Part shown: positions 1 to 25,582 of the stretch, one piece after another
Layout of the letters: every line of letters begins with the position of its first letter
How positions within the stretch are numbered: position 1 is the stretch's first letter
IMG/VR virus record: IMGVR_UViG_3300035661_000306
Coordinates: 1 to 25,590 of that record
Source of the DNA: a virus
Length of the DNA stretch: 25,590 nucleotides
Strand: one strand, 5' to 3'
The notes under the pieces: model-generated
Seen by the model: only the letters and a program-made list of their open reading frames with translations
Database searches by the model: none
Told to the model about the DNA's origin: nothing
Made by a program: the position numbers and the translations under genes

Positions 1-57
1 ATAAGGGTGTCAGCCGGGTAGAATAGTTCGAATTTACTCCAGAAACCGGGTTATTAA
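1..57. other. Presumed host flank at left edge
   Basis: No gene is visible here. If the element starts with the TG dinucleotide at 58, these bases are host DNA. The inverted-repeat match continues outward to 49, so the true border could instead be near 49. No 5-bp direct duplication matching the right flank was found at any symmetric border position tested. Confidence 0.4.
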
Positions 58-82
58 TGTACGAACGCAAAATATTTGAGAA
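49..82 (+). repeat. Left terminal inverted repeat
   Basis: This 34-bp stretch matches the reverse complement of 25549-25582 at 27 of 34 positions, with the outer eight bases (GGTTATTA) identical and the inner TGAGAA identical. It contains TG-T-ACGAA at 58-65, which pairs with TG-C-ACGAA at the other end, the kind of TG...CA terminus known for Mu. Paired, inverted and lying outside all coding genes, the two copies are best read as the ends of the transposable prophage. Confidence 0.75.
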
Positions 83-105
83 CGATTTCGCACGCTATTT
101 GAGAA
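67..105 (+). promoter_or_regulatory. Putative transposase-binding sites L1 and L2
   Basis: Two copies of the motif GCA-N3-TATTTGAGAA occur in the same orientation at 67-82 and 90-105, 23 bp apart. The same motif occurs in inverted orientation at the right end (25483-25498 and 25549-25564). Mu-type transposases bind several such sites at each end to build the transpososome; assigning these sites to the transposase at 18569-20497 is inference. A further partial copy (GATTCTCATTTAT, the reverse orientation) at 249-261 is identical over 13 bases to part of the rightmost site and may be a third left site. Confidence 0.65.
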
Positions 106-268
106 TAAAAAACGCTGAAATCGCAACATTTTAGGGGCAATAAAAAGGGGGATATAAGTATATGGCGCCTGCCAAATTAATCGTTTATAGCACATCTGTG
201 AGCATGATTTTTAGCCAATAGACCTTATCAGCACTCCGACAGCTCCCCGATTCTCATTTATGGACGGG
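106..268. other. Non-coding left-end segment
   Basis: No plausible gene is seen. Besides the partial binding-site copy at 249-261 there is a weak GCA...TGAG resemblance at 190-205. The stretch probably belongs to the end region on which the transposase assembles. Confidence 0.4.
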
Positions 269-303
269 AAAAGGGCGGGCACAGAGGCTGAACCCCGCCT
301 TTT
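269..303 (-). terminator. Intrinsic terminator of the leftward late operon
   Basis: The arms 269-279 and 293-303 form a GC-rich hairpin (AAAAGG-CGGG against CCCG-CCTTTT with one bulged base). Read on the minus strand it lies about 20 bases after the stop of the last leftward gene and ends in a short T run, as expected for a factor-independent terminator. Confidence 0.65.
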
Positions 304-325
304 AATATTGCTCCCGACGGTTGAT

Positions 326-1129
326 TCAGTAATTCATGATAAGAAGCTCGGTCGCACGAGGCCGGGTTTTTGACGGTGCGCCGTGCCGAATTCCTCTAGC
401 CAAAATTGGCCGCTCGTGCTCGATTATCCGGCATCCGGAGTATAGCTCCCTAATGTCCGGATGGTCGAAATAGCTGAGGCAGAATCTGCCTTTGATATTC
501 AGCAGTAGGTCGGCCAAGTTCGCGTGATCGTCACGAGTGAAATTTACCTCGTGATTGTTATAGTATGATTCGGTATTATAATATGGAGGGTCTATGTAGA
601 ACAATGTTTCAGACCTGTCAAATTTTGGAATTATATCTGTATAGTTAAGGTGCTCAATCATGACGGTGGAGAGGCGGCAGTTAATTGCATCGAGGCGCCG
701 CAGGAATGCCGTCCATGACGTGTTGGCGACACGCCTCGGCTTGATGTCATATGCCCAGCCTCCATAGCCGGCGAATGATTGCACCTGCTTGGTCGCGTAC
801 GCGATTGCTTTATCGATGTCCGGCGCGCTTTCATCTGATTGGAGAAAGTTGATAGCCTCATAATACTGTTCCCGGCTGTGGAGTGTCCACGTGGCCTTAT
901 GCCGGAATATGTTATAATTATCACGAACGATTTTGAAAAGGCGAACGAGATTTGAATTGAGGTCGTTATATATCTCGGTTGCAGATGGTTGTTTTTTGAA
1001 AAGCACCCAACCCGCACCGCCGAATACTTCGACGTATGCGAGTTCTTGATAATCTCGCGGGAAATTTTCAATTATCCAATTCGCGAGAGCGGATTTTCCG
1101 CCAACGTAACGAAACACGGCTCCTCCCAT
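326..1129 (-). CDS. DNA adenine methylase (D12 class, Dam-like)
   Basis: This 267-aa protein is a D12-class N6-adenine DNA methyltransferase that would transfer a methyl group from S-adenosylmethionine to adenine in DNA. The substrate-binding start RYVGGKSALANWI (residues 7-19), the cofactor motif VEVFGGAG (33-40), YNDLN (54-58) and the catalytic DPPY (180-183) are in the family order, and the length is normal for the family. It is the last gene of the leftward late operon, six bases after the spanin-like gene. The ATG at 1129 is possible, but a GTG at 1117 has a GGAGGA immediately upstream and could be the true start. Phage copies usually protect the genome from host restriction; that role is inference. 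Confidence 0.9.
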   Translation of the reverse strand: MGGAVFRYVGGKSALANWIIENFPRDYQELAYVEVFGGAGWVLFKKQPSATEIYNDLNSNLVRLFKIVRDNYNIFRHKATWTLHSREQYYEAINFLQSDESAPDIDKAIAYATKQVQSFAGYGGWAYDIKPRRVANTSWTAFLRRLDAINCRLSTVMIEHLNYTDIIPKFDRSETLFYIDPPYYNTESYYNNHEVNFTRDDHANLADLLLNIKGRFCLSYFDHPDIRELYSGCRIIEHERPILARGIRHGAPSKTRPRATELLIMNY

Positions 1130-1135
1130 TTTAAA

Positions 1136-1675
1136 TTATCTCTTCAATAAAATGATTGGCGTTGCAATAGCAGCAACAGCCGCCGCAACACCACACCAAA
1201 AATTATCATACCACGGTTTATCAATGCCCACTATTCGTGTTTCAATAAGCGTATCTGTTTGTTTAATTATTTTTTGGTTAACAGTGCCGGTATAATTAAG
1301 CAGTAGATTCCCACCAGTATCCGGTATAGCGGTAATCCGAATAGTCATATTAGAATCTACTATCGAACCGACATAGGCAGTTTTAGAGACTGCCGAGTCA
1401 ATTGATTCTGCAGATGAATCCGGAGGTAAAATTATTTCGGCATTATCTTGAGTAATCGGATGGTGCTTCTTTTGCACCATAACGCTTTGTTTTGAAAGCA
1501 CAGCGATGCCAGTCAGAGGTTTCGCAACTAATTCGACAGTAGGAGACCCTTTGTGCAAGACGATATCGGGAACATCGGCGCGCGGGGCTTCCTTTTTTGC
1601 GTGCATAAACAAACATGAGCCGAGGCCGGCAAGGAACAGAACCAATACAACTATTATTATTGTTGAACGATTCAT
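1136..1675 (-). CDS. Candidate unimolecular spanin (lipoprotein with C-terminal TM)
   Basis: The protein is about 179 aa from the ATG at 1675, which has AGAAAGG upstream inside the end of the endolysin gene. Residues 5-18 are strongly hydrophobic and lead to a lipobox-like L-G-S-C with the cysteine at residue 21. The C-terminus carries a second hydrophobic segment (about the last 20 residues, ending ILLKR) that could span the inner membrane. An outer-membrane lipoprotein end plus an inner-membrane anchor is the plan of u-spanins such as T1 gp11, which fuse the two membranes at the end of lysis. The gene directly follows the amidase, the usual place. No sequence family was recognised, so a membrane-anchored lysis accessory protein is the fallback. 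Confidence 0.55.
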   Translation of the reverse strand: MNRSTIIIVVLVLFLAGLGSCLFMHAKKEAPRADVPDIVLHKGSPTVELVAKPLTGIAVLSKQSVMVQKKHHPITQDNAEIILPPDSSAESIDSAVSKTAYVGSIVDSNMTIRITAIPDTGGNLLLNYTGTVNQKIIKQTDTLIETRIVGIDKPWYDNFWCGVAAAVAAIATPIILLKR

Positions 1676-1676: not shown

Positions 1677-2324
1677 TTAACCTTTCTGATTTGATAAGAA
1701 TTGTTGAAGTTTCTCGAGCGGAAAAGCCGGAGATACATCGGACTTGTCAGCCCTGAAATTGTGATGCGAACAGACACCACGAAACACCTTAAAATTTTGA
1801 TTCACATTCCACGATTGGTCTACTATTGCAGGAATGTTCCATCGATGGCAGATGTCGGCGCAGAGTTGAGCGACTGCATCGAATTGCGCCCGCGTGTATG
1901 ATGCATAGAATTTAGAGCCCCGCCATAACGGAACATTCACATAGGCATCTTTATATTCCGCATTGCCGTCGAGCCAAAACATTTTGACCTGGGTTCCGAC
2001 AACTTTCTGCATGAGCTGACCCTCGTTTACAATTTCAATTGTGATGCCTGCCTTTTCAGCGGCTAACAATTCGGGTGCTTCACCTGGCTTGTGAATGAAG
2101 AGAGTGACCGCCCAGTATTGCTCTTCGACGCATTGATAGATTGTGCCGTCTTTATCTATAACATAATGAGCGGCGCATTTGTTGGTCCCGTGATCGGAGA
2201 GCCACCAATTGATGGGACTTGCCGCATTGGAGCTCACGGTGTGGTGCAGAACGATAAACCGCTTATCTGTTGCAACCGCATGGATTTCGTTATCCGGGAA
2301 AATTCTTTTGACTATATTCATCAC
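1677..2324 (-). CDS. N-acetylmuramoyl-L-alanine amidase endolysin
   Basis: This 215-aa protein has the Amidase_2/T7-lysozyme fold signature: VLHHTV with zinc-binding His27, AHYVID around His53 with the DG turn, ITIEIVNEG (95-102), and C-terminal CSHHNFRADKSD with candidate zinc ligands His187 and Asp196. It would cut the bond between muramic acid and the peptide stem of peptidoglycan. There is no signal peptide, so it should need a holin for export. It overlaps the upstream tail gene by four bases (ATGA) and its stop lies one base before the spanin-like start, which marks a tightly coupled lysis pair at the end of the late operon. Confidence 0.9.
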   Translation of the reverse strand: MMNIVKRIFPDNEIHAVATDKRFIVLHHTVSSNAASPINWWLSDHGTNKCAAHYVIDKDGTIYQCVEEQYWAVTLFIHKPGEAPELLAAEKAGITIEIVNEGQLMQKVVGTQVKMFWLDGNAEYKDAYVNVPLWRGSKFYASYTRAQFDAVAQLCADICHRWNIPAIVDQSWNVNQNFKVFRGVCSHHNFRADKSDVSPAFPLEKLQQFLSNQKG

Positions 2325-3691
2325 GTGTGAAATGTTATTGAATTGAAAGCCTCGACGAGGTCGAGCGTGGTTTGATTTTTTGCAATTGAAAATTTTGCCG
2401 TGCGAATTCTAAAAATCTTCTGCAGGCGATTTGAATAGAAGAAGTATGGCTCGTTGGTGTCGAGGTAGAGCAGACCTCGTACACGTGCAGTGACCACGAG
2501 GCGCTTCCTGACCACGCAATCATATATAATGCCCGATTGATGATAGGCGGTTGGAATGAACAGGTGATTAATCAGGGAGTTCTTGTCGCTCCATTGCGAA
2601 GCATCGTAATTGAGAATGCGGCAGGAATTTTGTGCAATTCTTACAGTGGTGAAGTTGCCGAGAGTTGAGACGTAACCATTATGCTGCCCATCATAGAGCA
2701 TCTGATCGGAAACAGACACGATTGTTTTTAATCGTGTTCCGGTTGTGCCGATATTGGTGAATTCATAAGGCGGGAACATTATTTCTCCTGCATCATCGGT
2801 CGTGTTGTTTGGCTTCAACACCGAGATTGTGAATGCACCGGAATCGTTAGCGAACCTTATATTGGTTATTACAAAATCACGTTTCGAGGAATAATTGTTT
2901 TTTGAGAGGTCGATATCGTCAAGTGCATACATTGGACTGCCGTCATAGTACACAGGAGCAATAAGAAACTTATTAAAAGGAATTGAAATGAGAGAAGCGC
3001 CGATGTTCAGAACCATAGACTGGATAGCATCGCCGATGGTGGTGTATATTGAATCGAGACCGAACAGCGGCCGAACCTGCATTTTAATTTGATAATCACC
3101 GGTGAGGTCATAGCGATATGGGAAATTCGACAAATCATAGACCAAGAATTTTACTTTGTTAACAACATCCGGCTTCATTGTTACATCATCGAAGCTGTAT
3201 TGCAAGAGCACAGTGAGTGCATTCATCATTGGATATGGGTTCTCGGTGCCATATATGCCGACTGGAGACTTAGCGAATATTCCTGCAGCAACGCCGAGGA
3301 CATCGACCGTTAATGTGCGCTGTTGCGGGTCACCGGATGGATTCTGATTTGAATCAATGACCCCGCAGAAAAAGTTGGCCCAGGTGCCGGAGCGCAGCAC
3401 CTGAATCTCAACATAGATCGAGTACGACTGTACACGATTCCAAAAAAGTATATAGTCCGAGTTTGAATTGAAATAAAGCGTGATGGTTTGCTTCGGGGCT
3501 GTCATTTTATAATCAAAGTCGAACAGTGCCCCCGTTTGTAAATCATCTATGCTCACGAGCTTGGTTGAATCCGGGAACATATATGTGAGCGTGTCAAAGT
3601 TGGTGAACCGGACACGCACTTTTCCGACTGGATAAATGACAGAATTTGTTACGAGCTGCGGATAAGCGCTTTCCTCTTCGGCCATGCTCAT
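2321..3691 (-). CDS. Tail tip/baseplate-like protein
   Basis: This 456-aa protein starts two bases after the tape measure gene stop, the position of distal tail or baseplate proteins in siphovirus tail operons. The sequence is rich in beta-strand-like alternation (for example QTITLYFNS and YSIYVEIQVLRSGTW near residues 70-105) with no signal peptide or TM segment. No catalytic motif was recognised. Its position and composition suggest a distal tail or hub protein that connects the tail tube to host-recognition proteins; a receptor-binding role is also possible. It is co-translated with the endolysin through an ATGA overlap. Confidence 0.55.
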   Translation of the reverse strand: MSMAEEESAYPQLVTNSVIYPVGKVRVRFTNFDTLTYMFPDSTKLVSIDDLQTGALFDFDYKMTAPKQTITLYFNSNSDYILFWNRVQSYSIYVEIQVLRSGTWANFFCGVIDSNQNPSGDPQQRTLTVDVLGVAAGIFAKSPVGIYGTENPYPMMNALTVLLQYSFDDVTMKPDVVNKVKFLVYDLSNFPYRYDLTGDYQIKMQVRPLFGLDSIYTTIGDAIQSMVLNIGASLISIPFNKFLIAPVYYDGSPMYALDDIDLSKNNYSSKRDFVITNIRFANDSGAFTISVLKPNNTTDDAGEIMFPPYEFTNIGTTGTRLKTIVSVSDQMLYDGQHNGYVSTLGNFTTVRIAQNSCRILNYDASQWSDKNSLINHLFIPTAYHQSGIIYDCVVRKRLVVTARVRGLLYLDTNEPYFFYSNRLQKIFRIRTAKFSIAKNQTTLDLVEAFNSITFHT

Positions 3692-3693: not shown

Positions 3694-6453
3694 CTATAAA
3701 CTCCTGCGATTGAGTTCATCGGAGTAAGCCTTATTTGCTCCATATATCTTATCGTGACCAATTTCAAACTGAATGGTCTTAGCCCAATTGGTAACGGCTT
3801 CTGTATGTTCGCGTGCGGCATTAATAAAGTCGGCGGTGCTTGCGCTGACCGATGGTGTTGTGCGGCCACCCGGACGAGTTTGTCCGGATGATGATAAACC
3901 GAAAAGCGAAAATACATCTGAGATGATTGAACCGCCCCCGGAGACGACATCGCCGGCGAGTGACTTGAGTGTGTTTTTAATCATGAGGTCGGACTGCGCC
4001 TGCAACCACTGATTAATTATATTACGGATTGAGTTGATGGCGGATTGTTCGATACTCAACCACACACCGTCCCAGAAATCTTTTGCCTGCCTGGTGACGT
4101 TAAACAACTGATTGAACATTCCCTCGAAACCCGCCTCGATGGCCGTGATTCCGACCATCGTGGCTTCGTGATTTTGTTTCCAGAGTTCGACCTGCTGCGT
4201 GAGCACGGCATCGTCGTGAATTTGATTGATTCTATCTATGTCTTTGAAATATTGCTCGCGAGTAATGACGTCATCATTAAGAAGTTTTTGCAATTGCGCG
4301 CGGCGGTCTGCCCACTCGTTATCGAGCTGATTGACGCGGCGCTCTGATTCATTTTGCAATTGTGCTTCCGTGAGCTGCCTATCGAGTTGATTATAGTTTT
4401 CACGGCCACGCTCGGCGGTTTGCGAAAGTTCATCCCAATATTTTTTTTCTGCCTCGAGTGATGCAGCGTGTTCAGCTTCCTCGATGGCGAGTTCTTTTTT
4501 CGCATAGAGCTCGGCAAGCATTTCTTTATACTGACGACGTTTTTCATCGTCTTTTATGTTCTGGTCTGCCCACTCTTCTTGCTGAATTATTTCATTTTGC
4601 AGTTTTGAAATTTCTTTATCAGGACCATCGGGCATGAGCTCGGTTTGCAGTTGACGAAGTTCCTGCGCAAATTTTTGAATCTCTGTTTTTATTTTTTCAC
4701 GCTGTTCGGAAATGAACAACAGTATCTTGCTTTTGCCATCTGCTGTTTTTGCACTATTGCTGTTTGTTTCGCCGTTAATGATGTTGGTCGCGGTCTTATC
4801 GAGTTCATCAAGTTCCTTTGTCCAATTATCGTGACTGGCTTTGAGCGCCCGCTCAATAGATGCAATGCTATCGCCTCCCTGGGCCTCAACCTTTTCAGAT
4901 AAATTCAACTCATTTATTTTAGCAAGATTGGCGGTGAGCTTTTTTTGCAATGCCGATTTTTTTGAGCTATAATTTTTTGCACTCACATCAAGCATATCGT
5001 TCTGAGCCTTAAGGCGTTCGTTCTCGGCTTCGAGCTGTTCACGGGTTTCGCCTGCAGTGCCCTTTGGCGATTTTTTATCAAGCGCGTTGAGCCGATTTTG
5101 CGCATAGCTGAGTGCATCGGTCAGATACGCAATTTGATTTGTGAGGTTTTGAACCTCAAGTTTCCGCTTTTCGTTTTGTTCTTGAGTGAGGAAAACACGA
5201 GCGCCGCTCTTGCTCGTATTATAATAATATCCATTATCATTCTGTGAAATGCCTTGCAGTTGAGATTGCAGGGCTGAGAGCTGAGTGCGACTATAGTTGA
5301 TTGTCCAGTTCAACTGCTCGCGACTCTGTGCATCAATCTCCTGATGGTTGGAATTGATGGTCCCCTGACGTGTCGATTCAAAACGTTCCTTAACTTCTTT
5401 CGCGTGATTATATGCCTTTGCCAATTCACCGAGCCCATAGGTGAGGGCAGCGACGGCGGCTGTTACGCCAGTGAATGCCACAATGCCCGTTGCAGACGCG
5501 AGGGAAAGACCAAACAACTTCATAGATGACATCGCGGGTATGATGCCCGTCGTTCGCAATATTCCGTATGCTGCAGTCAATTGACCAATTGTGATCACGA
5601 CACCGCCGAGAGTTGGACTGAGATTTTTCGCGGCAACGGCCGCCTCGCTGATTGCATCGATGAACGGACTGACAAGACCTGCCTGCATGGTGGCCGCAGA
5701 TTTTTGCAAAGCGCCGACACTCTTTTCCATTTGATTGAGCTTGAATGCATCGGTCTTTTGAATTGCATCGTTGACGGCGCCATATTTTTGCGCCAACAAA
5801 TCGAGCACGAACGCACGACCTTGCTCGGCTGTGCCTGTCGCAATGATTGTTTTCATCTGCTCTTTTTGTTCGGCACTAAGCACGACGCCCATCTGCCTCA
5901 GCTTGCGCATTCCCTGCAGTGGGTCTTCGAGAATGATGCCGAGGTTACGGGCTCCCTCAGCGACGTCTGATTTCATAACCTGTGCCAACGCGAGAGACGC
6001 CCGCGTGGCTTTTGGTATTTCATCATGCCCGATATTTTTGAACGTGAGCAGCATCTGCTCCGCTTCAATGATTTGCGTTTTAGTGGCGAGAGTCAACTTA
6101 GAATACGTCACGGCAAGCTTTTCAATTTCCGACACCGTATATCCTGCAGCAGCGCCGTTGGATGTTATGACTCCGGACACCGTTGCAAGCGTGAGCTCGT
6201 ATGAATGGATTTTCTCGATGCCGGAAGCGAACATAGATTCAACCGCCTGGAATGACTGCTTTATGCCACCGATTGCAAGGCCGGCATTGGTGAATGATGC
6301 AGACATTTGTTTGCTGAATTCACCAACGAGAGTTTGACCGAATCGGAATGAATTGAAGAACTCGTTGGCAACCTTTTGCACACCAGAGAGAGAAACGTTC
6401 GCTTCTTTCCCATCGATGTTGACTTTAAGGTTTATATCTTGCGGGTTATTCAT
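3694..6453 (-). CDS. Tail tape measure protein
   Basis: At 919 aa this is the longest gene in the window. It has an N-terminal helical region, a hydrophobic alanine/glycine-rich segment around residues 280-345, and long charged, glutamine-rich coiled coils around 455-760, the classic build of a tape measure protein that fixes tail length and may enter the host envelope. From the approximate rule of 1.5 angstroms per residue the tail would be about 130-140 nm. It follows the tail assembly chaperone: its ATG overlaps the stop of the frameshifted chaperone extension (AATGA at 6450-6454). Several long antisense reading frames inside it are shadows. Confidence 0.9.
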   Translation of the reverse strand: MNNPQDINLKVNIDGKEANVSLSGVQKVANEFFNSFRFGQTLVGEFSKQMSASFTNAGLAIGGIKQSFQAVESMFASGIEKIHSYELTLATVSGVITSNGAAAGYTVSEIEKLAVTYSKLTLATKTQIIEAEQMLLTFKNIGHDEIPKATRASLALAQVMKSDVAEGARNLGIILEDPLQGMRKLRQMGVVLSAEQKEQMKTIIATGTAEQGRAFVLDLLAQKYGAVNDAIQKTDAFKLNQMEKSVGALQKSAATMQAGLVSPFIDAISEAAVAAKNLSPTLGGVVITIGQLTAAYGILRTTGIIPAMSSMKLFGLSLASATGIVAFTGVTAAVAALTYGLGELAKAYNHAKEVKERFESTRQGTINSNHQEIDAQSREQLNWTINYSRTQLSALQSQLQGISQNDNGYYYNTSKSGARVFLTQEQNEKRKLEVQNLTNQIAYLTDALSYAQNRLNALDKKSPKGTAGETREQLEAENERLKAQNDMLDVSAKNYSSKKSALQKKLTANLAKINELNLSEKVEAQGGDSIASIERALKASHDNWTKELDELDKTATNIINGETNSNSAKTADGKSKILLFISEQREKIKTEIQKFAQELRQLQTELMPDGPDKEISKLQNEIIQQEEWADQNIKDDEKRRQYKEMLAELYAKKELAIEEAEHAASLEAEKKYWDELSQTAERGRENYNQLDRQLTEAQLQNESERRVNQLDNEWADRRAQLQKLLNDDVITREQYFKDIDRINQIHDDAVLTQQVELWKQNHEATMVGITAIEAGFEGMFNQLFNVTRQAKDFWDGVWLSIEQSAINSIRNIINQWLQAQSDLMIKNTLKSLAGDVVSGGGSIISDVFSLFGLSSSGQTRPGGRTTPSVSASTADFINAAREHTEAVTNWAKTIQFEIGHDKIYGANKAYSDELNRRSL

Positions 6454-7006
6454 TTAATTCGCTTCCATTCAAACAGGGATTGTTGTTTGCTGTTGACTCG
6501 ATGAATCAGTTTGATTATGTAAAATCTAAAAAATTGTTCCGGGGTTAGCTTTCTCAAATAATGTGCATCCACAGGGTTGTTATCGGATGCATCGATGAGC
6601 AGGGTCTCATATAGATCAAACTTGATTGTCGTGGACTCCGGATCGACGTTGTATTTAGCGAGATCGTTTATTTCTCTAACGATTTTTTGATAAGCTCCGG
6701 TAAGTCGTTCGATTTCCGCGCGGTAGACTTCATAGACTCGACTCGCATTAAAAAAAAAGATTGTATGACATCCATGATTTGCTCTTCAGTAAAATCTCCA
6801 GAGGCCACCGGATCGACAGTATCTTGTGCCGGGATGAGGACGGCTTCGATAATTTTTTTCGCGGCTTCTGGATTGAACGAGAGGATGAATGAACCCTCTG
6901 GCGAGATTTGGCGAAGAAGATTTTCAATTTCGATGAGTTCATCGATGGTATTTTTTTTGAATTTATAATCACGGTTTTTTACCGTGAAAATTTTTTCGTG
7001 TTTCAT
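6450..7006 (-). CDS. Tail assembly chaperone, -1 frameshift fusion (G-T type)
   Basis: The zero-frame codons TTT TTA at 6754-6749, preceded by T, form the canonical slippery heptamer T-TTT-TTA. After a -1 slip, reading continues from AAT at 6749 through 99 open codons to a TGA at 6452-6450, giving a fusion of about 185 aa (86 + 99). The second frame has no ATG of its own over its roughly 110 open codons (only an internal GTG at 6572), yet looks like real protein (YEVYRAEIERL, YLRKLTPEQFFRFY). It fills an otherwise empty 214-base gap and overlaps the tape measure start. This is the arrangement of lambda G/GT, in which the T part binds the tape measure. No downstream pseudoknot was recognised by eye. 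Confidence 0.75.
6668..7006 (-). CDS. Tail assembly chaperone, short form
   Basis: The 112-aa protein (start ATG with AAAGGAGC upstream) sits directly before the tape measure gene, where phages of the lambda type place the chaperone that coats the tape measure during tail assembly. The N-terminal part reads like a small alpha/beta protein with a helix-rich second half (IDELIEIENLLRQI, residues 21-34). At residues 84-86 the codons TTT-TTT-TTA lie in a run of nine T, which allows a -1 ribosomal slip into the frame that continues to 6450. Without slipping, translation ends at 6668. Confidence 0.7.
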   Translation of the reverse strand: MKHEKIFTVKNRDYKFKKNTIDELIEIENLLRQISPEGSFILSFNPEAAKKIIEAVLIPAQDTVDPVASGDFTEEQIMDVIQSFFLMRVESMKSTARKSNDLPELIKKSLEK

Positions 7007-15899: not shown

Positions 15900-15907
15900 G
15901 GCAAAAA

Positions 15908-17893: not shown

Positions 17894-17924
17894 ATAACCT
17901 CCTTTTATCTTACCCGCGACCGGG

Positions 17925-18308: not shown

Positions 18309-18393
18309 AATAATCTTATTGTATTGTAAATAATGCTTGACTTTAATAATACGATTGTATTATTTTAGAGTCATAAAATTATGACAACAATCT
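18309..18393. promoter_or_regulatory. Switch region: early promoter with operator palindrome
   Basis: A perfect palindrome AATAATAC-GATT-GTATTATT occupies 18345-18364. It overlaps a rightward promoter candidate with TTGACT at 18337-18342 and TATTAT at 18358-18363 (spacer 15, shorter than ideal). A looser related site (TTATT-N8-AATAA, about 18317-18334) lies over a leftward -10 candidate (TACAAT on the minus strand) close to the repressor start. Repressor bound to the palindrome would block the early operon. Confidence 0.65.
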
Positions 18394-18582
18394 ATGCAAA
18401 TAATGAGCTGCCACAAAAGAAAAAAAACATTGAAAGAAATTATCCAGTCTAAAAAGGCCAAGGTGACACAGGAACGCCTTGCAGAGTTGACTGGATATTC
18501 CCAAAGCCAAATCTCCAGAGTCATCAACGGGCAACGCAATAGCCCGGAATTAGAGAGGTTAATTAGAAATGCTATCGCTTGA
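18394..18582 (+). CDS. Cro/Ner-type regulator
   Basis: The 62-aa protein is little more than one helix-turn-helix domain: TQERLAELTGYSQSQISRVINGQ (about residues 28-50), an XRE/Cro-like pattern. It is the first gene of the rightward early operon, opposite the repressor, as Ner in Mu or Cro in lambda. The start may instead be the ATG at 18403. It overlaps the transposase gene by 14 bases. It should turn down the repressor and later the early promoter. Confidence 0.75.
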   Translation: MQIMSCHKRKKTLKEIIQSKKAKVTQERLAELTGYSQSQISRVINGQRNSPELERLIRNAIA

Positions 18583-20497
18583 CGAATATATTCAACAAAC
18601 CGGATTAACTAAGCGGTCGGTCTACCGCAAGTTAGCACAGCGGAACATACTCCGCATGCGAATTGATGGAGAGGTCGTAATTCTTGATGAGAAAGACCTT
18701 ATGCAAATGAGCCTGTCGCACGTGACGAGGGCTCAGATTCTGCAGAACATAAAGACCGACCTCGATTCCATGATTGTGCAGGCCTCTCGATTGATTGAGA
18801 CGAATCAGGCGCAAGAGCGCATTGATTTGATACAGCAGATTTCAGACCAGGCGGATGCATGGGAGGCGAAAGGATTTCCGCTAAAGGGCTACTCTGTAAA
18901 ATCAATCTACAGAAAACTTTTGATTTTGAAAAAGTCGGAGCGACCCACTCCGGAAGCGCTCGCCCGCAGACAACGGTCTGACCGCATGCAGATACGCAAC
19001 AAAGTTCTCTCCCGGAATTTTGAGCGACTGCTGCCGCTCGCGAGCGCACTCTATTTTGAGAATGCCAAACCAAACATCCGGCTGTTGGTTGACCTTATTC
19101 GTGAGTATGCGATGCTGAACGAAGATTTTTACGAGTTCGCATCTATACATAGAGATGTACTCGCGAGGAATTTAAAAAATGCCTTTGAGCAATCCGGATT
19201 CAAGAGCCTGCACCAATTCTTGAACCATCATAACGCATGGCGCGAGAAACTGCCGACAGTTATTGGCGCGTTCACCGATGATATGAATTTCATGGATTGG
19301 ATTGGAGGGGATGACCACAAATCTGACGTCTCGGGTGTTTGGGTTTATGACCCAGTTGCCGGAAAGAACGTGATGAAGCAGGTGCAGACCTGGGCGTGGA
19401 TTGAAATGAAAACACAACGTGTGCTTGCCCGTGTGACCAAAGCCGGGCCGATCACCTCCGAGGACGTGATTAAATCGGTTATAGAGGTCGTACTAAAATA
19501 CGGCCTGCCTAATTGCGGGTTCATAGTTGACAATGGTGTGGGCTATTCCGAAGAGGTAAAGCGTTTTTTTCTTCGCCTCGAATCACACAAGGCAATTTTG
19601 AAACCGTCGAAAGGTTACACCCCGACAAACAAAGCAAACCTTGAGCGGATATTCAGGTACTGGAAAGAGGAGATGGATGCCTTTTATAATAATTTTGTCG
19701 GCCCCGACAAGCGCTTGGAATCACGTCACTCCGGATTGGTTCTCTCGCCTGAGCCGTGCGAAATTTCGATTGATGAATATGACCGGAACATCGAACAGTT
19801 CCTCAACGGCTTCTATTCGAGCCGCCATCGCAGGAGAATCATAAATGGTAAGGCGGTTAATCTATCAATCGCTGAGATGTATGACCAACTTTATCAGAAT
19901 TTTACTCCAGATTTTTCGATTAATGGAGCAAAGATTCGCTACGCACTTTGTGACGAATATGTTAAGCCGTTTGATTCTAAGATAATTATCAAGGGGCATA
20001 CCTACATTGAGACAGAGGCGCTTCCAGTTTCATTCAACGGACAAAATTTCAAAGTTTTTTACAACCGGTTTGACCCATCCGAAATTGATATATACGCGCT
20101 TGACCTATTGATTGACCGGACAACGGGAGAGGTGTGGAACCGTGGCGACTTTGTTGCCACCCTCAAAAACATTCGGATGGCAGATAATAAATATAAAATT
20201 GTTGCTGAAGCACGCAAGCGTGCTCAGAAGGCACACAAGCAGCTTGCCGAGGCTATTGTCGGCGAGCAGGTTGAAATAACCGGCGCCCTCCCGGTTAATG
20301 TTGGAGTTGCGGGTGATGTTCACGACCAACGCATTGAATTTGTAAGAGACGTGAAGGCACAACTTGGACACGCCCTTTCACATATATCGATTGAGCCTAT
20401 AAGCGCTCAGCAAGGCGAAATAGGAACACCGGCTGAAACAGCGACTCCGTTAGTTGACGAGTCCGATGCGGTGAGTTGGACAATAGACGAGGACTAA
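18569..20497 (+). CDS. MuA-like DDE transposase
   Basis: This 642-aa protein would cut the phage ends and join them to new target DNA in replicative transposition. The N-terminus has a helix-turn-helix (LTKRSVYRKLAQRNI, residues 13-27). The catalytic RNase H-like core (rve type) has FMDWIGGDDH with Asp249, FIVDNG with Asp321, and NKANLERIFRYW with Glu359, giving a D-71-D-37-E core. A beta-barrel-like region follows (IKGHTYIETEALPVSF, about 475-495), and the C-terminus ends acidic. Length is close to MuA. AGAGAGG precedes the ATG by ten bases. The next genes contain no MuB-like ATPase. The likely target sites are the inverted motifs at the element ends. Confidence 0.92.
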   Translation: MLSLDEYIQQTGLTKRSVYRKLAQRNILRMRIDGEVVILDEKDLMQMSLSHVTRAQILQNIKTDLDSMIVQASRLIETNQAQERIDLIQQISDQADAWEAKGFPLKGYSVKSIYRKLLILKKSERPTPEALARRQRSDRMQIRNKVLSRNFERLLPLASALYFENAKPNIRLLVDLIREYAMLNEDFYEFASIHRDVLARNLKNAFEQSGFKSLHQFLNHHNAWREKLPTVIGAFTDDMNFMDWIGGDDHKSDVSGVWVYDPVAGKNVMKQVQTWAWIEMKTQRVLARVTKAGPITSEDVIKSVIEVVLKYGLPNCGFIVDNGVGYSEEVKRFFLRLESHKAILKPSKGYTPTNKANLERIFRYWKEEMDAFYNNFVGPDKRLESRHSGLVLSPEPCEISIDEYDRNIEQFLNGFYSSRHRRRIINGKAVNLSIAEMYDQLYQNFTPDFSINGAKIRYALCDEYVKPFDSKIIIKGHTYIETEALPVSFNGQNFKVFYNRFDPSEIDIYALDLLIDRTTGEVWNRGDFVATLKNIRMADNKYKIVAEARKRAQKAHKQLAEAIVGEQVEITGALPVNVGVAGDVHDQRIEFVRDVKAQLGHALSHISIEPISAQQGEIGTPAETATPLVDESDAVSWTIDED

Positions 20498-20502
20498 AAT
20501 GT

Positions 20503-20913
20503 ATGGACAGAAAAGTTTTTGACACTGGAAGCGAGTGCGAATCCGGGCACGAATTGATACGGTTCAGCGGGCTTAATTGTCCTCTATGCATAGAACGTAA
20601 AGCTTGGAACGAAGCCTCTGAAAGTTGGGTCGTTACGCTCGATGGTATGATGCGACTGAATAACGATTATTTGATTTCGGATGCCAGCAAACAGGCTGAA
20701 ATTGAGAGTATAAAGACGCAATATGCTAACATCCAGAAGCTTATCTCAGACAAATCGATTTTGCAATACAATAGACTTCAAAAAGTCCTGTTCGAGTATC
20801 AAAGTTCAATCGCGCTTAAAAACTCACTCATAAGTGAGTTAGATAAAGAAATTATTGAACTAAAAAAAATGGTTATCGGATACAGGACACGTTTACAGAT
20901 TACTAACTTATAA
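20503..20913 (+). CDS. Zinc-ribbon plus coiled-coil early protein
   Basis: From the ATG at 20503 the product is 136 aa. An N-terminal C-x3-H-x9-C-x2-C set (CESGH ... CPLC) could bind zinc, and the second half is a long coiled coil (about residues 55-130, EIESIKTQYANIQKLISDK then LISELDKEIIELKKMV). It takes the place directly after the transposase where Mu has its B gene, but has no Walker A motif or other ATPase sign. Function is unknown; a transposition accessory role is only suggested by position. Confidence 0.6.
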   Translation: MDRKVFDTGSECESGHELIRFSGLNCPLCIERKAWNEASESWVVTLDGMMRLNNDYLISDASKQAEIESIKTQYANIQKLISDKSILQYNRLQKVLFEYQSSIALKNSLISELDKEIIELKKMVIGYRTRLQITNL

Positions 20914-20926
20914 TAAAGGAGCGAAA

Positions 20927-21283
20927 ATGGAAACTTTAGCAATTGGTCAGACTGGACTTATCACGTTAAACGAGGGCATTGAAAAAATGTCCCCAAAAAA
21001 ACAAAAAGCGGTTATCGTTGATAACTGCAGAGACCTAATTATTCAAGTTACCGAAGCTATGAGCGAAATAAATGCCGCAAGGGCTGAGGAGAAACAATTA
21101 ACTGAATGGCTCGCCCGGACAAAGGAAGGCAAAAGGCTAAAAGCTTTGAAGTCTATTCAACGTAATCAGAAAAAGGCGTCTGATACTCTTTTGCAGCAAT
21201 ATGCGGGAATGCTAAAGTTAGCTACGGCGCTTGGGTTCAACGTGACGGATGAGCTCAAAAAAATGGAGCGCATCAATGGCTGA
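20927..21283 (+). CDS. Hypothetical early protein
   Basis: The 118-aa product is helical and charged, with EINAARAEEKQLTEWLARTK (about residues 47-66) and a lysine-rich RLKALKSIQRNQKKA; it is likely a small DNA-associated or coiled-coil protein. A good GGAGCGAAA precedes the ATG. It overlaps the GemA-like gene by eight bases. No family recognised. Confidence 0.6.
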   Translation: METLAIGQTGLITLNEGIEKMSPKKQKAVIVDNCRDLIIQVTEAMSEINAARAEEKQLTEWLARTKEGKRLKALKSIQRNQKKASDTLLQQYAGMLKLATALGFNVTDELKKMERING

Positions 21284-21737
21284 GTTCAACCGGAATCGAT
21301 GCAACGCAATGCTCCACCTACTGAGCCGCAAGATTTGCGGCTCAGATATGGCGCTTCGGTCGATGTTAGAAGCTCAGGGTCATTCATCGACATTAGAGCT
21401 AACGGATGCAGAGGCGAAGGAGATGCAGCATCAACTTTCTGATGCTCTTGCGAAGGCAAACGCTTCGCTGAACTCTATTAGCGATTCTGATAATCAAATG
21501 ACCCTAAGCCAACGCAGTGCCATTATCAGAATTGCCAGGTATGAATTTTACTGGACTCCGCAAGCAACCTTTTCATACATACTTGGAACCTGCCCTCACC
21601 TGCGTAGCCAATTGAGCAAACACGAGATAAAAATTTCAAAGCTCGGCGCACTCTATCAAATCATGTCGTTAGAGGATGCCGACAAAGTTATTAAACGTCT
21701 TGATAAAATAAAGGATAGGAATGATGAAGCGAATTGA
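21276..21737 (+). CDS. GemA-like regulator (Mu gp16, DUF1018 type)
   Basis: From the ATG at 21276 (GGAG eight bases upstream) the product is about 153 aa. It has the two-part pattern of Mu gp16/GemA proteins: an N-terminal half with MLHLLSRKICGSDMALRSML and LTDAEAKEMQHQLSDAL, then LSQRSAIIRIARYEFYW and a C-terminal LGALYQIMSLEDADKVIKRL. GemA of Mu affects host gene expression and DNA topology. The gene lies in the early operon as in Mu. A longer start at 21249 would overlap the preceding gene more deeply and has no better ribosome site. Confidence 0.65.
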   Translation: MAEFNRNRCNAMLHLLSRKICGSDMALRSMLEAQGHSSTLELTDAEAKEMQHQLSDALAKANASLNSISDSDNQMTLSQRSAIIRIARYEFYWTPQATFSYILGTCPHLRSQLSKHEIKISKLGALYQIMSLEDADKVIKRLDKIKDRNDEAN

Positions 21738-21924
21738 GGAAATGGAGCTGAACCTCAACGATGTGATTGCGGAAGCAAAGGAAATGTTTCCGAACTCTGA
21801 CACCTGGGCGCAGGACTATCTTGACGAAATGCGCACGAGATGGACAATGCCAAACGGGCAAAAAATGTCCGTCATGTTACGATATAGTTTGATTTCCCTC
21901 CTCGCATGTTTTTACAAAAACTAA
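21721..21924 (+). CDS. Small hypothetical early protein
   Basis: The 67-aa product is acidic at its N-terminus (MMKRIEEMELNLNDVIAEAK) with a hydrophobic C-terminal helix (YSLISLLACFY). Two adjacent ATG codons (21721 and 21724) compete as start. It overlaps the end of the GemA-like gene and is part of the tightly packed early operon. Not recognised. Confidence 0.5.
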   Translation: MMKRIEEMELNLNDVIAEAKEMFPNSDTWAQDYLDEMRTRWTMPNGQKMSVMLRYSLISLLACFYKN

Positions 21925-21931
21925 GGTCAAC

Positions 21932-22147
21932 ATGTCAGATGAATTAAAATATAAAATCAACGACCCGGTTATCTATGCCGGAGCAAATTACACCGTGGTT
22001 CAATCCGGGCCCCGAAAATTGAAATTGCGGAGCTGCAGAGATGCAAGCCTTATTGTTGGCACTAATCCAGATGACCCGATGCTGACACCGGGGCAGATTA
22101 TTAATTTAATCGGAAGCGCAAAGAGGGAATCAAATGAAAAAGAGTAA
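21932..22147 (+). CDS. Small hypothetical early protein
   Basis: This 71-aa protein has a beta-rich, SH3-like look: KINDPVIYAGANYTVVQSGP then KLKLRSCRD. It begins seven bases after the previous stop and overlaps the next gene by 14 bases. Not recognised. Confidence 0.5.
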   Translation: MSDELKYKINDPVIYAGANYTVVQSGPRKLKLRSCRDASLIVGTNPDDPMLTPGQIINLIGSAKRESNEKE

Positions 22148-22346
22148 CGTGCCTGATGCATTCGGGCCAGTGATTAAGCCTGAGATTAAAGAGACTACCG
22201 AGGACTATAGAACTCTTCCGCTGTTTGCCACGATTGATAGATCGAACAGTGATGAGCCTAAAAATTCAGAAGAACATAAAAATGAGGAGCTCGCTGAACA
22301 GAGACCGGAGGTAAAGAGATTGGAGCAAGAGAGTGAGAAGCATTAA
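22134..22346 (+). CDS. Small acidic hypothetical protein
   Basis: The 70-aa product is highly charged and probably disordered in its second half (SDEPKNSEEHKNEELAEQ). It overlaps the preceding gene and, by 14 bases, the Com-like zinc finger gene. Function unknown; an anti-restriction or regulatory role cannot be shown. Confidence 0.45.
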   Translation: MKKSNVPDAFGPVIKPEIKETTEDYRTLPLFATIDRSNSDEPKNSEEHKNEELAEQRPEVKRLEQESEKH

Positions 22347-22458
22347 GGTCGTTTGTAAAAAATGTGAATGGACTGGGCTTCGCAAAGCTGCTTCGGTTCA
22401 CCGGGTTTGTCCGAAATGTAAATCAGCGGTTATCGTTAAAAATAAAAATAGATTATGA
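22333..22458 (+). CDS. Com-like zinc-finger protein
   Basis: This 41-aa reading frame starts with GTG at 22333, with GGAG seven bases upstream. It has two CxxC pairs (CKKC at 8-11, CPKC at 26-29) separated by 14 residues, followed by SAVIVKN. This closely resembles the zinc finger of Mu Com, which activates translation of the DNA-modification gene mom. As with com and mom, the next frame overlaps its end (TTATGA), and here that next frame looks like the start of a DNA methyltransferase. The match is from pattern and context; a generic zinc ribbon is the alternative. Confidence 0.65.
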   Translation: MRSIKVVCKKCEWTGLRKAASVHRVCPKCKSAVIVKNKNRL

Positions 22459-22682
22459 ATTTAAGTAACTCGAAAGATTATCAGGTAGTAAGTCTATTTT
22501 CAGGCGTATGAATGTTTGACGTGGGCGCAATGTTCGCAGGAATTGATACTCTTTATATAAACACTGAATGTATCTGCGCAATCAATTCCGCGACGGTTAA
22601 TGGATTAATCACTGTTCGCCTTTCCTCCGGAGAGGTTTTTCATGTAATTGCAAGTTTTGAAGAATTTTTTCAACCAGCATAG
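22455..22682 (+). pseudogene. Remnant of C5 cytosine methyltransferase start
   Basis: The ATG at 22455 overlaps the Com-like stop. The frame reads YQVVSLFSGV, then a TGA at 22509-22511, then MFDVGAMFAGIDT, which together match motif I of cytosine-C5 methyltransferases (SLFSG-GG-D-G...AG) with the first glycine of GG replaced by a stop and the second by Met. After this, homology is lost; catalytic PCQ and ENV motifs are absent. Total frame is 75 codons to TAG at 22680. The part after the stop may be a small gene of its own (see next entry). Confidence 0.5.
22512..22682 (+). CDS. Possible small protein after the methylase remnant
   Basis: This 56-codon frame begins at ATG 22512. Its second part, LYINTECICAINSATVNGLITVRLSSGEVFHVIASFEEFF, shown here as pieces LYINTECICAI, LITVRLSSGEVF and SFEEFF, has the shape of small FlbD-like beta proteins known in many phages. 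There is no strong ribosome-binding site, so it might be a fusion point left by deletion of the methyltransferase body rather than a working gene. Confidence 0.35.
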   Translation: MFDVGAMFAGIDTLYINTECICAINSATVNGLITVRLSSGEVFHVIASFEEFFQPA

Positions 22683-22733
22683 ATAGAAGTAATTAACAAC
22701 GATTTTCCAATCAACAAATGGTAGAGGTTAAAA

Positions 22734-23228
22734 ATGGATATAAAATCATTCGACGATTTGGGCTTATCACTGAGCAAACTTGCACAGGTGGAAAGCTCAA
22801 TTTATAAACTCGAGAACGATATGAATAAACTTATCGATTCTGTCAAAGCAAAATATGCTGAAAAATCAGAACAGTTGCGCACCGAACAAGTTTCTCTTCG
22901 CACCGACATTGAGGTTTTTTGCAGGCAGAACAAGGAAGAGTTTGAGAAACAGCGCTCTCGCGAGTTTCCGCACGGGACAGTTGCCTTTCGCAACAATCCT
23001 CCAAAAGTCGCACAGTTGAGCAGAAAATTTTCAGTGGCGACGAGCCTTGAGCTTGTAAAAAAAATCATGAAAAAATATATCCGCACGAGAGATGAAATCA
23101 ATAAGGAAATGATTCTCGCCGATTATGCGGGTAAAATTATTGATGATAAAAAGCTGGCATCTGTAGGCCTCCGAATAGACAGCGAGGAATCTTTTTCAAT
23201 CGATGTAAAACGTGAAGAGCTTAATTAA
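22734..23228 (+). CDS. Gam-like host-nuclease inhibitor
   Basis: The 164-aa product has the Mu Gam plan: an N-terminal coiled coil (SSIYKLENDMNKLIDSVKAKY, then EQLRTEQVSLRTDIEVFC), then the conserved core FPHGTVAFRNNPPKV (around residues 78-92) and a C-terminal helix-strand part (LASVGLRIDSEESFSIDV). Mu Gam dimers bind double-stranded DNA ends and block host exonucleases such as RecBCD; it is related to bacterial Ku. The ATG has AGAGG upstream. It is placed late in the early operon. Confidence 0.85.
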   Translation: MDIKSFDDLGLSLSKLAQVESSIYKLENDMNKLIDSVKAKYAEKSEQLRTEQVSLRTDIEVFCRQNKEEFEKQRSREFPHGTVAFRNNPPKVAQLSRKFSVATSLELVKKIMKKYIRTRDEINKEMILADYAGKIIDDKKLASVGLRIDSEESFSIDVKREELN

Positions 23229-23244
23229 TTAAATTCCTCCACCG

Positions 23245-23264
23245 GGGCGGGTAAGCTCCCGCCC
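23245..23264 (+). terminator. GC-rich hairpin after gam
   Basis: GGGCGGG at 23245-23251 and CCCGCCC at 23258-23264 form a perfect 7-bp stem with the loop TAAGCT. It stands between gam and the next gene and is followed by ATCTTATT, not a clean T run, so it is more likely an attenuator or RNA-processing or stabilising element than a full stop. Confidence 0.5.
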
Positions 23265-23282
23265 ATCTTATTAGGAAATATA

Positions 23283-23600
23283 ATGCGAACAAAAAAAGAT
23301 GATAGCTCAAGGGCTTTTAACGCAGAACAAATTGCATCAATCGCTGGGTCGAGTGTCTCGAATGTTTATAAGGTATCCGCCGGTTTACGCCAATCTGAGA
23401 AGATACAGGAGCTTTTGTCCATTACAAGAGCTGATATAGTTGAACTATTTACCGACCCGCGGATGCTCGAAATCTGTAACCTGGCAATTGATCGCCACAA
23501 AGACCGTGAAGTAAAAAAATATGCATCATTGGTTTACAATCTTAGCGTTAAGCTCCAGAAGGGCACTGGTACTAAGCACACAATCGAGGACGGCATCTAA
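23283..23600 (+). CDS. Hypothetical early protein with HTH-like N-terminus
   Basis: This 105-aa protein has AFNAEQIASIAGSSVSNVYKV (about residues 12-32), which resembles a helix-turn-helix, followed by helices containing ADIVELFTDPRMLEICNLA. AGGA precedes the ATG. Mu-like phages often encode a middle regulator at this stage, but no specific family was recognised. Confidence 0.5.
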   Translation: MRTKKDDSSRAFNAEQIASIAGSSVSNVYKVSAGLRQSEKIQELLSITRADIVELFTDPRMLEICNLAIDRHKDREVKKYASLVYNLSVKLQKGTGTKHTIEDGI

Positions 23601-23851
23601 TGGTTTGCAAGGGCGAAAAATGCGATTGCGAAAAATTTACTGTGATTAAATGTTTCCGAAATAAAAAAAGAGTAAACGGTAAGTGGGTCTTTTCGGACAC
23701 CGTTGATACTCGGATTATTGCATGCAATGTATGTTCAAGGCAGTATCTGACTGAGTCGGTTATGATTTCGGAATTAGTTCCACACAATTACAAGCGCCAC
23801 GAACGACCGCTTGATAATAATTCTCAAACACTATATTTATTCGACCTATGA
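23600..23851 (+). CDS. Small cysteine-rich protein
   Basis: The 83-aa product has cysteine groups at its N-terminus (CKGEKCDC) and centre (CNVC), which could bind zinc. Its start overlaps the previous stop (TAATG) and its stop overlaps the next start (ATGA), so it is translated within a coupled trio. Not recognised. Confidence 0.55.
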   Translation: MVCKGEKCDCEKFTVIKCFRNKKRVNGKWVFSDTVDTRIIACNVCSRQYLTESVMISELVPHNYKRHERPLDNNSQTLYLFDL

Positions 23852-24498
23852 AATTTGATGTTGCAATCAGGCGAATTTTGCGCCGCTATTATGATTCAGG
23901 ACGTGCGACTGAAATAAAAACTCAGGGCGTTCTTGAAATTAAAAAATATATACTATCTCATGGTGGTTTGTGGGTAGACTATCAATCCAGAATCCAAGAT
24001 ATAAACAAAGCTGTTGTTACTATGATGGCCGATGAATTTGCTAATGCACACAAAATACAGACTTCGTCTGATGAAATTAAAATGCTGAAGAAAATAAATG
24101 AAAAATTTGTGAGCAAATTATCAGACCGTCGAGCTGAGGCTATGAGAATCATGGAACACGCAATTATAAAAGCCCATGACTCCGGAGCTGATTGGCAGAC
24201 TATAGCCAGAAAAGGTCTTATAAAATTAGACCTATCTGAGCATCAAATAGAGACCGAAATCTACACAACATCTGCGGCGATTGATAACGTCGGTCGAATT
24301 ATTGATTTTCGTTCTGCAGGTATAAAAAATTTAATTTACCAAGGCCCTGAACCGCAAAGACATTTCTGCGTTGAGCATTATAAAAAAGTCTATTCTATTG
24401 ATGATGTTAATAAGATGGTTAATGATTTTGGAGAACCTGCGGCGGCTTATTGCGGAGGCCCCAACTGTCACCATCGATGGGATGCTTATAACAAATAA
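23848..24498 (+). CDS. Mu F-like/SPP1 gp7-type minor head protein
   Basis: The 216-aa protein has a helical N-terminal two-thirds and a C-terminal module RHFCVEHYKKVYSIDDV...GGPNCHHRWDAY with cysteines and histidines spaced like the C-terminal part of SPP1 gp7/Mu gpF minor head proteins (FC...GK...GG-NCRHRW). In Mu this gene sits next to the portal; here it is the last gene of the early operon, 6 kb from the portal. It is shorter than Mu gpF. Either a relocated head gene or a reuse of the module in another role is possible. A terminator follows directly. Confidence 0.6.
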   Translation: MKFDVAIRRILRRYYDSGRATEIKTQGVLEIKKYILSHGGLWVDYQSRIQDINKAVVTMMADEFANAHKIQTSSDEIKMLKKINEKFVSKLSDRRAEAMRIMEHAIIKAHDSGADWQTIARKGLIKLDLSEHQIETEIYTTSAAIDNVGRIIDFRSAGIKNLIYQGPEPQRHFCVEHYKKVYSIDDVNKMVNDFGEPAAAYCGGPNCHHRWDAYNK

Positions 24499-24524
24499 AA
24501 AAGCCCGGTTGACCGGGCTTTTTT
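24497..24524. terminator. Strong bidirectional terminator
   Basis: AAGCCCGGT (24501-24509) pairs with ACCGGGCTT (24512-24520) around a TG loop, extended by four A on the left and four T on the right. It ends the early operon on the plus strand and the cargo operon on the minus strand. Confidence 0.9.
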
Positions 24525-24525
24525 A

Positions 24526-24822
24526 TTATTTATTTCGCATTTCTCGCCGCAACTGGTCTAGATTTTCCCGCATTAAAGTGGCCGCTTCTTTTGGTGAATT
24601 TTTAGGCTGCATAAAAAAATATAAATCAAGCGCTTCTAATATCGCCCACAGATGTTTAAGAGATAGGAAAAAAGACCCTGATTCCGCTCTCTTAATAGTC
24701 GCCAAACTAACGCCTGAGCGTTCAGCTAAATCCTCTTGGCGCATTCCAAGGGCTTTACGTCGTTCTCTAATAAAATTACCGGTTATTATCCTGGCCGCTA
24801 CCAGACTTTCATGACTTACCAT
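24526..24822 (-). CDS. XRE-family regulator
   Basis: The start is the ATG at 24822 with AAGGATAAAC upstream; earlier in-frame sequence lies inside the neighbouring gene. The 98-aa product has a canonical XRE helix-turn-helix, MRQEDLAERSGVSLATIKRAE (about residues 27-47), with SLKHLWAILEALDLYFF after it. It overlaps the end of the upstream 140-aa gene by 14 bases. It probably controls its own promoter; a short inverted repeat overlaps that promoter's -35 box. Confidence 0.8.
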   Translation of the reverse strand: MVSHESLVAARIITGNFIRERRKALGMRQEDLAERSGVSLATIKRAESGSFFLSLKHLWAILEALDLYFFMQPKNSPKEAATLMRENLDQLRREMRNK

Positions 24823-25231
24823 GTTTATCCTTAATTGAATTAATTTTGGAATTAATCGCGTCGATAATTTCAGAAGCTGAACTATCACCGGTAAAATACA
24901 TCTCGTTCGGCATGTTTTGGTCGGGGTTATAGAATCTCTGGCGAGTTTGATCGTTATCGGAGATTACAACTGAAACATGGTATTCATATAAGTCGTCCAT
25001 ATTTCGGGCGTTGCCAGAGTGGTCTGCTATGCGCAGCTCTATGCAAGGGCTATCATCTTCATCTTCATCAAATGGAATTATGTTATATTTTCCCCCGAAA
25101 TAATTCTGTACGTCCCAAAGCAAATGCAGTGTTTGCTTCTCGCGAGCCTCTGCAGCTTCACGTTCAGCCATTTCTTCGAGTTCTTCGGGGGTATATTCGA
25201 TTTCGTCTGAAAGGTTATTTAAGTGTTCCAT
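24809..25231 (-). CDS. Acidic hypothetical cargo protein
   Basis: This 140-aa protein begins with an acidic helix (YTPEELEEMAEREAAEAREK, residues 13-32), then a mixed region with DEDEDDSPCIELRIADHS and EYHVSVVIS. It is not recognised. It is paired with the XRE gene as an independent unit beyond the early operon's terminator, with its own promoter. The pair may act in defence, exclusion or toxin-antitoxin function; the sequence alone does not show which. Confidence 0.55.
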   Translation of the reverse strand: MEHLNNLSDEIEYTPEELEEMAEREAAEAREKQTLHLLWDVQNYFGGKYNIIPFDEDEDDSPCIELRIADHSGNARNMDDLYEYHVSVVISDNDQTRQRFYNPDQNMPNEMYFTGDSSASEIIDAINSKINSIKDKHGKS

Positions 25232-25291
25232 TGTTATTTACGCCGCATTTGTATTCCGGTTGCCGCCCGGATTTAAATTAATGTTTAAGTA

Positions 25292-25320
25292 AATATAGCT
25301 CAAATATGACACTTTGTCAA
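25292..25320 (-). promoter_or_regulatory. Sigma70-type promoter with operator, cargo unit
   Basis: On the minus strand TTGACA (25320-25315), a 17-base spacer and TATATT (25297-25292) make a near-consensus housekeeping promoter, about 60 bases before the 140-aa gene. The inverted repeat TGACA-CTT-TGTCA (25307-25319) covers the -35 box and is a likely operator. More TGTCA boxes stand upstream at 25363, 25370 and 25393. The spacer also holds ATATTTGAG, a partial copy of the end-binding motif. Confidence 0.75.
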
Positions 25321-25482
25321 GTTATTTTTTTTAAAATTTCAATTCCGAATTTATACATCACCTGTCACATGTCACTAATTTTCTATTTTTGGTGTCATTT
25401 AGTCGTTTTATGGGGGATTTATTGTTTGATTTTGGCGAAAAAATTAGAATTAATAATTTGATTAAAGGTCTTTTCCCATTTT
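25321..25482. other. Non-coding right-end segment
   Basis: No plausible gene; the open frame in this region and beyond is AT-rich, has no ribosome site and covers the terminal repeat. The stretch holds the TGTCA boxes and lies between the cargo promoter and the right-end binding sites. Confidence 0.45.
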
Positions 25483-25564
25483 TTCTCAAACATTATGCTT
25501 TTACAAAGTTTGAAAATTGGAGATATTTAAGATATTTCGATTTCCAGATTCTCATTTATCGTGC
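25483..25564 (-). promoter_or_regulatory. Putative transposase-binding sites R2 and R1
   Basis: On the minus strand GCATAATGTTTGAGAA (25498-25483) and GCACGATAAATGAGAA (25564-25549) match the left-end motif GCA-N3-T-N2-TTGAGAA in inverted orientation. All four copies share GCA, T at position 7 and TGAGAA. The centre spacing is 66 bases here against 23 at the left, so the two ends are not equal, as is also the case in Mu. Confidence 0.65.
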
Positions 25565-25582
25565 TTTCGTGCAATAATAACC
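25549..25582 (-). repeat. Right terminal inverted repeat
   Basis: This is the partner of the repeat at 49-82 (27 of 34 positions match on reverse complement). A CA dinucleotide at 25572-25573 would be the terminus matching TG at 58. The remaining 17 bases to the window edge are presumably host DNA or the outer part of the repeat. Confidence 0.75.

Follow-up and report, generated by a model that had tools for sequence, protein, structure and literature searches.

The window considered here, the whole of IMG/VR virus contig IMGVR_UViG_3300035661_000306 (25,590 bp, the complete record), is very probably one entire Mu-type transposable phage genome of ~25.5 kb with short flanks of host DNA, in which a MuA-like transposase would recognize sites at both ends and in the interior and would insert the element without MuB. 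The features on which this view is built are the two ends, the DNA outside them, the transposase gene and a small gene that lies where MuB would be expected:

1 to 57: presumed host flank, outside the conserved end
58 to 105, plus strand: tail-side end, Mu attR-like (TG tip at 58; 16-mers at 67-82 and 90-105, 23 bp start to start)
251 to 266, minus strand: weak third site, inverted, beside the tail-side end (matrix score 8.7)
18569 to 20497, plus strand: Mu-type DDE transposase, MuA-like (PF02914, 1.3e-6, above the cut-off; phrog_310, 2.2e-20, residues 68-567)
20927 to 21283, plus strand: conserved helical protein of ~120 amino acids, where MuB is expected (AlphaFold2 helices, mean predicted local distance difference test score (pLDDT) 82.5)
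25483 to 25573, minus strand: early-side end, Mu attL-like (CA tip at 25573; sites at 25549-25564 and 25483-25498, spacing 66 bp)
25574 to 25590: presumed host flank, outside the conserved end

An earlier note on this DNA had proposed that inverted repeats and an array of Mu-like sites delimit a complete element, and on recounting its central observations are borne out. Positions 49-82 and the reverse complement of 25549-25582 agree in 27 of 34 bases. No ungapped 34-mer comparison of the terminal 200-bp stretches scores higher, and the maximum among ~1,940 random internal 200-bp pairs was 23 of 34. The four terminal copies of GCANNNTNNNTGAGAA (GCA-N3-T-N3-TGAGAA) that it listed are all exact (67 and 90 on the plus strand, 25549-25564 and 25483-25498 on the minus strand), and the entire window holds seven exact matches where 0.12 are expected. 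The TG at 58 and the CA at 25573 give the 25,516 bp reported earlier. The inverted match continues 8 bp beyond these tips (GGTTATTA; window positions 49-57 and 25574-25582), but GGTTATTA is found in none of the relatives' ends compared, so it is not counted in the conserved end and the wider bounds 49 and 25582 were dropped. By synteny, the left end is the tail-gene end (attR-like) and the right the early-gene end (attL-like).

Single-sequence searches with the transposase in phage records, viral contigs and genome contigs gave no match; a search with the terminase reached family members among IMG/VR and GTDB contigs. The lineage occurs in Ignavibacteria, the class of Stygiobacter, where a search with a transposase alignment gave matches in 10 of 391 genomes, compared with 1 of 395 from the whole phylum. 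The main relatives are G3 (IMGVR_UViG_3300012931_000058), G5 (CAIWCR010000029.1), G10 (IMGVR_UViG_3300048576_000580; L041/L042), G483, G491, G608, G625 and G466. The G5 contig (G005:C29), a near-complete 28-kb member of the lineage, is found in a Parcubacteria metagenome-assembled genome, a placement that probably reflects mis-binning.

The ends are kept together with the transposase. A fixed-spacing scan found 23-bp and/or 64-66-bp site pairs, mostly one per end, in nine elements with transposases 26-40% identical to that of the window. The tail-gene end carries the 23-bp pair in the window, G5, G3, G10 and G491; the early-gene end carries the 64-66-bp pair in the window, G5, G3, G483, G491, G608, G625 and G466. 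One additional, weaker 22-bp pair lies in the interior of G10. Scanned stretches without a family transposase had no site pair, G9 excepted, and G4, a relative by its terminase, lacks end arrays. The exception, IMGVR_UViG_3300025120_014399, is a 57-kb contig with a 23-bp pair at 11396-11434 and no detected family transposase, so its pair may be either a relict end or part of a different phage. In 7 of 13 ends, the two of the window included, the distance from TG to the end of the outer site is exactly 25 nt, in support of tips at 58 and 25573. By comparison with these relatives, the small size noted earlier holds against Mu (36.7 kb) but is ordinary within the lineage (about 28-31 kb). The partial third copies described before fare differently: the one at 249-261 is weak (8.7), yet a strong site (23.7) with the same inverted orientation is present near this end in G5, while the one at 25295-25310 is not supported, having no matrix match that scores at least 8.

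Homology stops at these ends, and unrelated host DNA lies outside them in the relatives. With the ends also conserved alongside the transposase, neither of the outcomes that the earlier note had named as refuting was observed. For example, G3 is inserted in a histidine-kinase-like gene, its left flank matching part of the ATPase domain (a weak Pfam match, E 0.0012) and its right flank, as judged by eye, the preceding portion of such a kinase, and G466 splits an RNase H gene. The insertion loci differ between G3, G466, G491 and G625; in our reading the flanks of G5 have no gene in common. TATAT adjoins both tips in G3 and G491, and the host reading frame in G3 would fit an overlap of 3 bp rather than 5. 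No target duplication was seen in G5.

The transposase has putative catalytic residues D248, D321 and E359 that are invariant in a three-way alignment of the window and two relatives; both aspartates align with those of MuA, and the glutamate is tentatively identified by its ER-F context. When searched with a MuB-like query from relative G1 that does recover itself, the window, G3, G5, G10 and G483 gave no match, and the single match in G491 is on a different contig. Among the open reading frames (ORFs) after the transposase, none in the window or in nine relatives is of ATPase size; instead, small genes are found there, among them that for the ~120-amino-acid protein, and small genes also occupy this position in the more distant G6 and G8. 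By these comparisons the lineage lacks MuB and carries a conserved, predicted helical protein in its place. A transposase and an ATPase together have been described as the signature of transposable phages (PMC8705779), a definition from which this lineage departs because a MuB-type ATPase was not found.

The earlier note placed its sites at the ends only; those four are real, but sites of the same type also occur in the interior, including three exact copies that it did not list (2601 on the plus, 6551 on the minus and 16514 on the plus strand):

2601 to 2616, plus strand: weaker site GCATCGTAATTGAGAA, exact motif (score 11.5)
6551 to 6566, minus strand: intergenic site GCACATTATTTGAGAA, exact motif (score 23.0)
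8758 to 8773, plus strand: weaker site TCGTAATGTTTGAGAA (score 15.0)
14257 to 14272, minus strand: site TCGCGGTATTTGAGAA in the terminase gene, found by the matrix from the relatives' ends (score 19.9)
16514 to 16529, plus strand: site GCAAATTATTTGAGAA in the portal gene, exact motif (score 20.3)

When a strong site is defined by a score of at least 17 with a matrix built without the tested element, there are three strong interior sites in the window, five in G5, two in G3, three in G10 and one in G491, a total of 14 compared with ~0.2 in Markov sequences; 173 kb of control DNA held one, in G9. In one relative with a variant end, the interior sites follow that variant. The outer end site of G466 reads TGAAAA, and its interior has three TGAAA and no TGAGA sites, whereas the interiors of six other elements have 12 TGAGA and no TGAAA (1 in 455 by an exact test). 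Since the interior sites of G466 match its end variant, one protein probably reads both sets. In G10, end-type sites at 3823, 8157, 12709, 17149, 22180 and 26572 are separated by near-even steps of 4.3-5.0 kb; this spacing was noticed after the threshold had been chosen and is less even in other elements, and it is not used as support.

The main competing explanation for the interior sites is that they are operators of a phage regulator, like the 'stoperators' of mycobacteriophage repressors, and that the ends merely share them. Stoperators are likewise spread over a genome and the window encodes several helix-turn-helix genes, but the intergenic region between the repressor and the Ner-like gene has no strong site in the window, G5 or G3, and a stoperator-like repressor motif was rejected because the early operators carry no site. 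In addition, the sites lie on either strand regardless of gene direction and are mostly intragenic, and the spaced pairs at the tips are built of the same motif, so we consider this explanation unlikely.

It is highly improbable that chance or codon choice produced the interior matches and that only the end sites matter. G491 and G483 have one or no strong interior site, and TTTGAGAA can encode common dipeptides, as such an explanation would predict. However, enrichment with the leave-one-out matrix exceeds 50-fold, and the sites lie mostly in coding sequence, where codon choice does not explain them: synonymous-codon shuffles leave 3.4 of the 14 sites, three of these being intergenic and unmovable by the shuffle, so about 11 coding sites are observed where ~0.4 are expected. 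Within ten host genomes (~29 Mb) the strict motif has 11 matches, all in phage sequence: phage contigs account for nine, and the other two belong to early-side ends on the edge of host contigs; the G466 variant described above also argues against chance.

The remaining genes of the window are those of a phage, and the earlier view of a complete element agrees with the finding that Mu transposase, Gam, Mu portal, terminase, head and tape measure proteins are all encoded:

326 to 1129, minus strand: D12-class adenine methyltransferase, at the tail-side end (PF02086, 2.2e-23)
1677 to 2324, minus strand: N-acetylmuramoyl-L-alanine amidase, lysis (PF01510, 3.8e-19)
3694 to 6453, minus strand: tail tape measure protein (phrog_27166, 9.1e-19)
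10901 to 11857, minus strand: major head protein (phrog_212, 1.1e-14)
14226 to 15899, plus strand: terminase large subunit (phrog_38, 6.9e-40)
15896 to 17107, plus strand: Mu-type portal (PF06074, 3.7e-30)
17666 to 25231: early block, inverted as a unit relative to G5 and G3 by synteny
17925 to 18308, minus strand: helix-turn-helix repressor-like gene (PF01381, 1.1e-4, just under the cut-off)
18394 to 18582, plus strand: small helix-turn-helix gene in a Ner-like position (PF01381, 7.5e-9)
21249 to 21737, plus strand: GemA-like protein (PF06252, weak, E 0.016; relatives 35-42% identical)
22734 to 23228, plus strand: Mu Gam-like end-protection protein (phrog_491, 1.4e-29; PF07352, 1.4e-26)
23848 to 24498, plus strand: MuF-like head protein, by sequence pattern only (no Pfam match at 0.001), kept in relatives

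No match to Mor was found among the early ORFs scanned, which covered the small ORFs only in part. A minus-strand helix-turn-helix gene and its partner beside the early-side end (24526-25231) have no relatives in the other elements and are possibly cargo. Owing to the inversion of the early block, its transcription in the window runs to the near end, to which the transposase gene points, and G491 and G466 are oriented likewise relative to the end. In the transposase tree the window clusters with G5 and G483, while G491 and G466 are placed elsewhere with moderate support; because these two share the orientation of the window yet sit apart from it, the early block seems to have flipped more than once in the lineage.

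It is very unlikely that the element is a dead prophage or phage remnant. Its size is below that of Mu and MuB is absent, but the named genes are open, both ends are intact, the gene set matches that of the closest relative, G5, and MuB is absent from all the relatives. It is hardly credible that the terminal repeats, instead of being transposition ends, belong to a linear or circularly permuted phage genome or arose as an assembly artefact. The record would fit this, being a whole contig that ends 57 and 17 bp beyond the tips and shows no target duplication, but the same ends in relatives adjoin host chromosomal sequence and accompany a Mu transposase, the record's ends have by eye no direct terminal repeat, and an element that inserts at many sites would assemble as a contig stopping just past its ends.

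Several observations nevertheless weigh against our view of a transposable phage with sites shared between ends and interior. The structure model of the transposase is poor (mean pLDDT 47), so the proposal that it binds these sites draws on sequence only. The flanks of the window have no common 5-mer beside the tips, and a target duplication there was rejected as unreadable; its absence from the window and G5 would be expected if the two flanks of each stem from separate insertions. The inverted GGTTATTA beyond both tips is unexplained, as a single insertion with target duplication does not account for it, and it perhaps represents two independent T/A-rich targets. The tips can be placed only to within 1-2 nt, since the direct repeats in G3 and G491 imply 23-24 nt and not 25, and the test of whether interior sites track the end variant comprises one variant element and three sites.

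Taking these points into account, we favor a model of replicative transposition in which the DDE transposase most likely binds the 16-bp sites at both ends and, once bound, would pair them through the 23-bp pair on the tail side and the 64-66-bp pair on the early side. The element would then be inserted into A+T-rich target DNA without MuB, possibly with assistance from the ~120-amino-acid helical protein encoded beside the transposase, and the protein that binds the ends probably binds the interior end-type sites too. MuB confers the cis-immunity of Mu. A tentative proposal for the MuB-less lineage is that its dispersed transposase sites mark the genome as self, bound transposase blocking self-insertion, which would constitute a MuB-free immunity carried within coding sequence and evolving together with the end sites. 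This proposal is favored because MuB is absent and because the genome immunity of Mu is itself mostly independent of MuB, its basis still being open (PMC7350765).

Transposition of Mu is viewed as the work of two proteins, with the ATPase MuB choosing the target and keeping insertions off the surroundings of the element. A natural MuB-free lineage can reveal what a transposase manages with other help, and the fixed ~120-amino-acid partner protein is a candidate for a new target-selection or assembly factor. Dispersed end-type sites offer a testable idea of how a large jumping element avoids inserting into itself, a question that is open even for Mu (PMC7350765), and the lineage also provides small transposition systems from Ignavibacteria. 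A literature search, outside which most subscription journals lay, found no paper on MuB-less transposable phages, dispersed transposase sites or Mu-like phages of Ignavibacteria.

Comparison with known systems places the window near Mu but apart from it. Escherichia phage Mu (Muvirus) and the window both have a DDE_2 transposase, Gam, a Mu portal, TG/CA tips and asymmetric end sites (in Mu, R1-R2 are 22 bp and L1-L2 105 bp apart). Unlike Mu, the window is 25.5 and not 36.7 kb, lacks MuB, uses a 16-bp TGAGAA-type site and has an early block that runs the opposite way with respect to the near end. Mu also has no interior end-type sites, its best interior score being 13.0 compared with 16.6-28 at its ends, and its target is reported as CYSRG (PMC5977238), whereas two relatives of the window have TATAT-like targets. 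Phage IMGVR_UViG_3300025000_000328 (G001, L003/L004) has homologous terminase, portal, head, Gam and MuF-like genes but encodes a MuB-like ATPase (307 amino acids) and a transposase of another clade that the window's does not match. The left end of its contig L003 (positions 1-160) has five TGAGAA copies (TTTGAGAA repeats within the first 150 bp); because this MuB-bearing phage has a very different transposase, the motif core may be older than the MuB-less lineage. Transposable phages of Bacteroidota, such as the fF4-like Flavobacterium prophages (PMC7761591), share with the window a transposase-led early region, a Mu-type portal and a DNA-modification gene by one end, the hankyphage (PMC12135933) not being compared in detail; the fF4-like phages carry an ATPase after the transposase (PMC7761591), whereas the lineage of the window does not.

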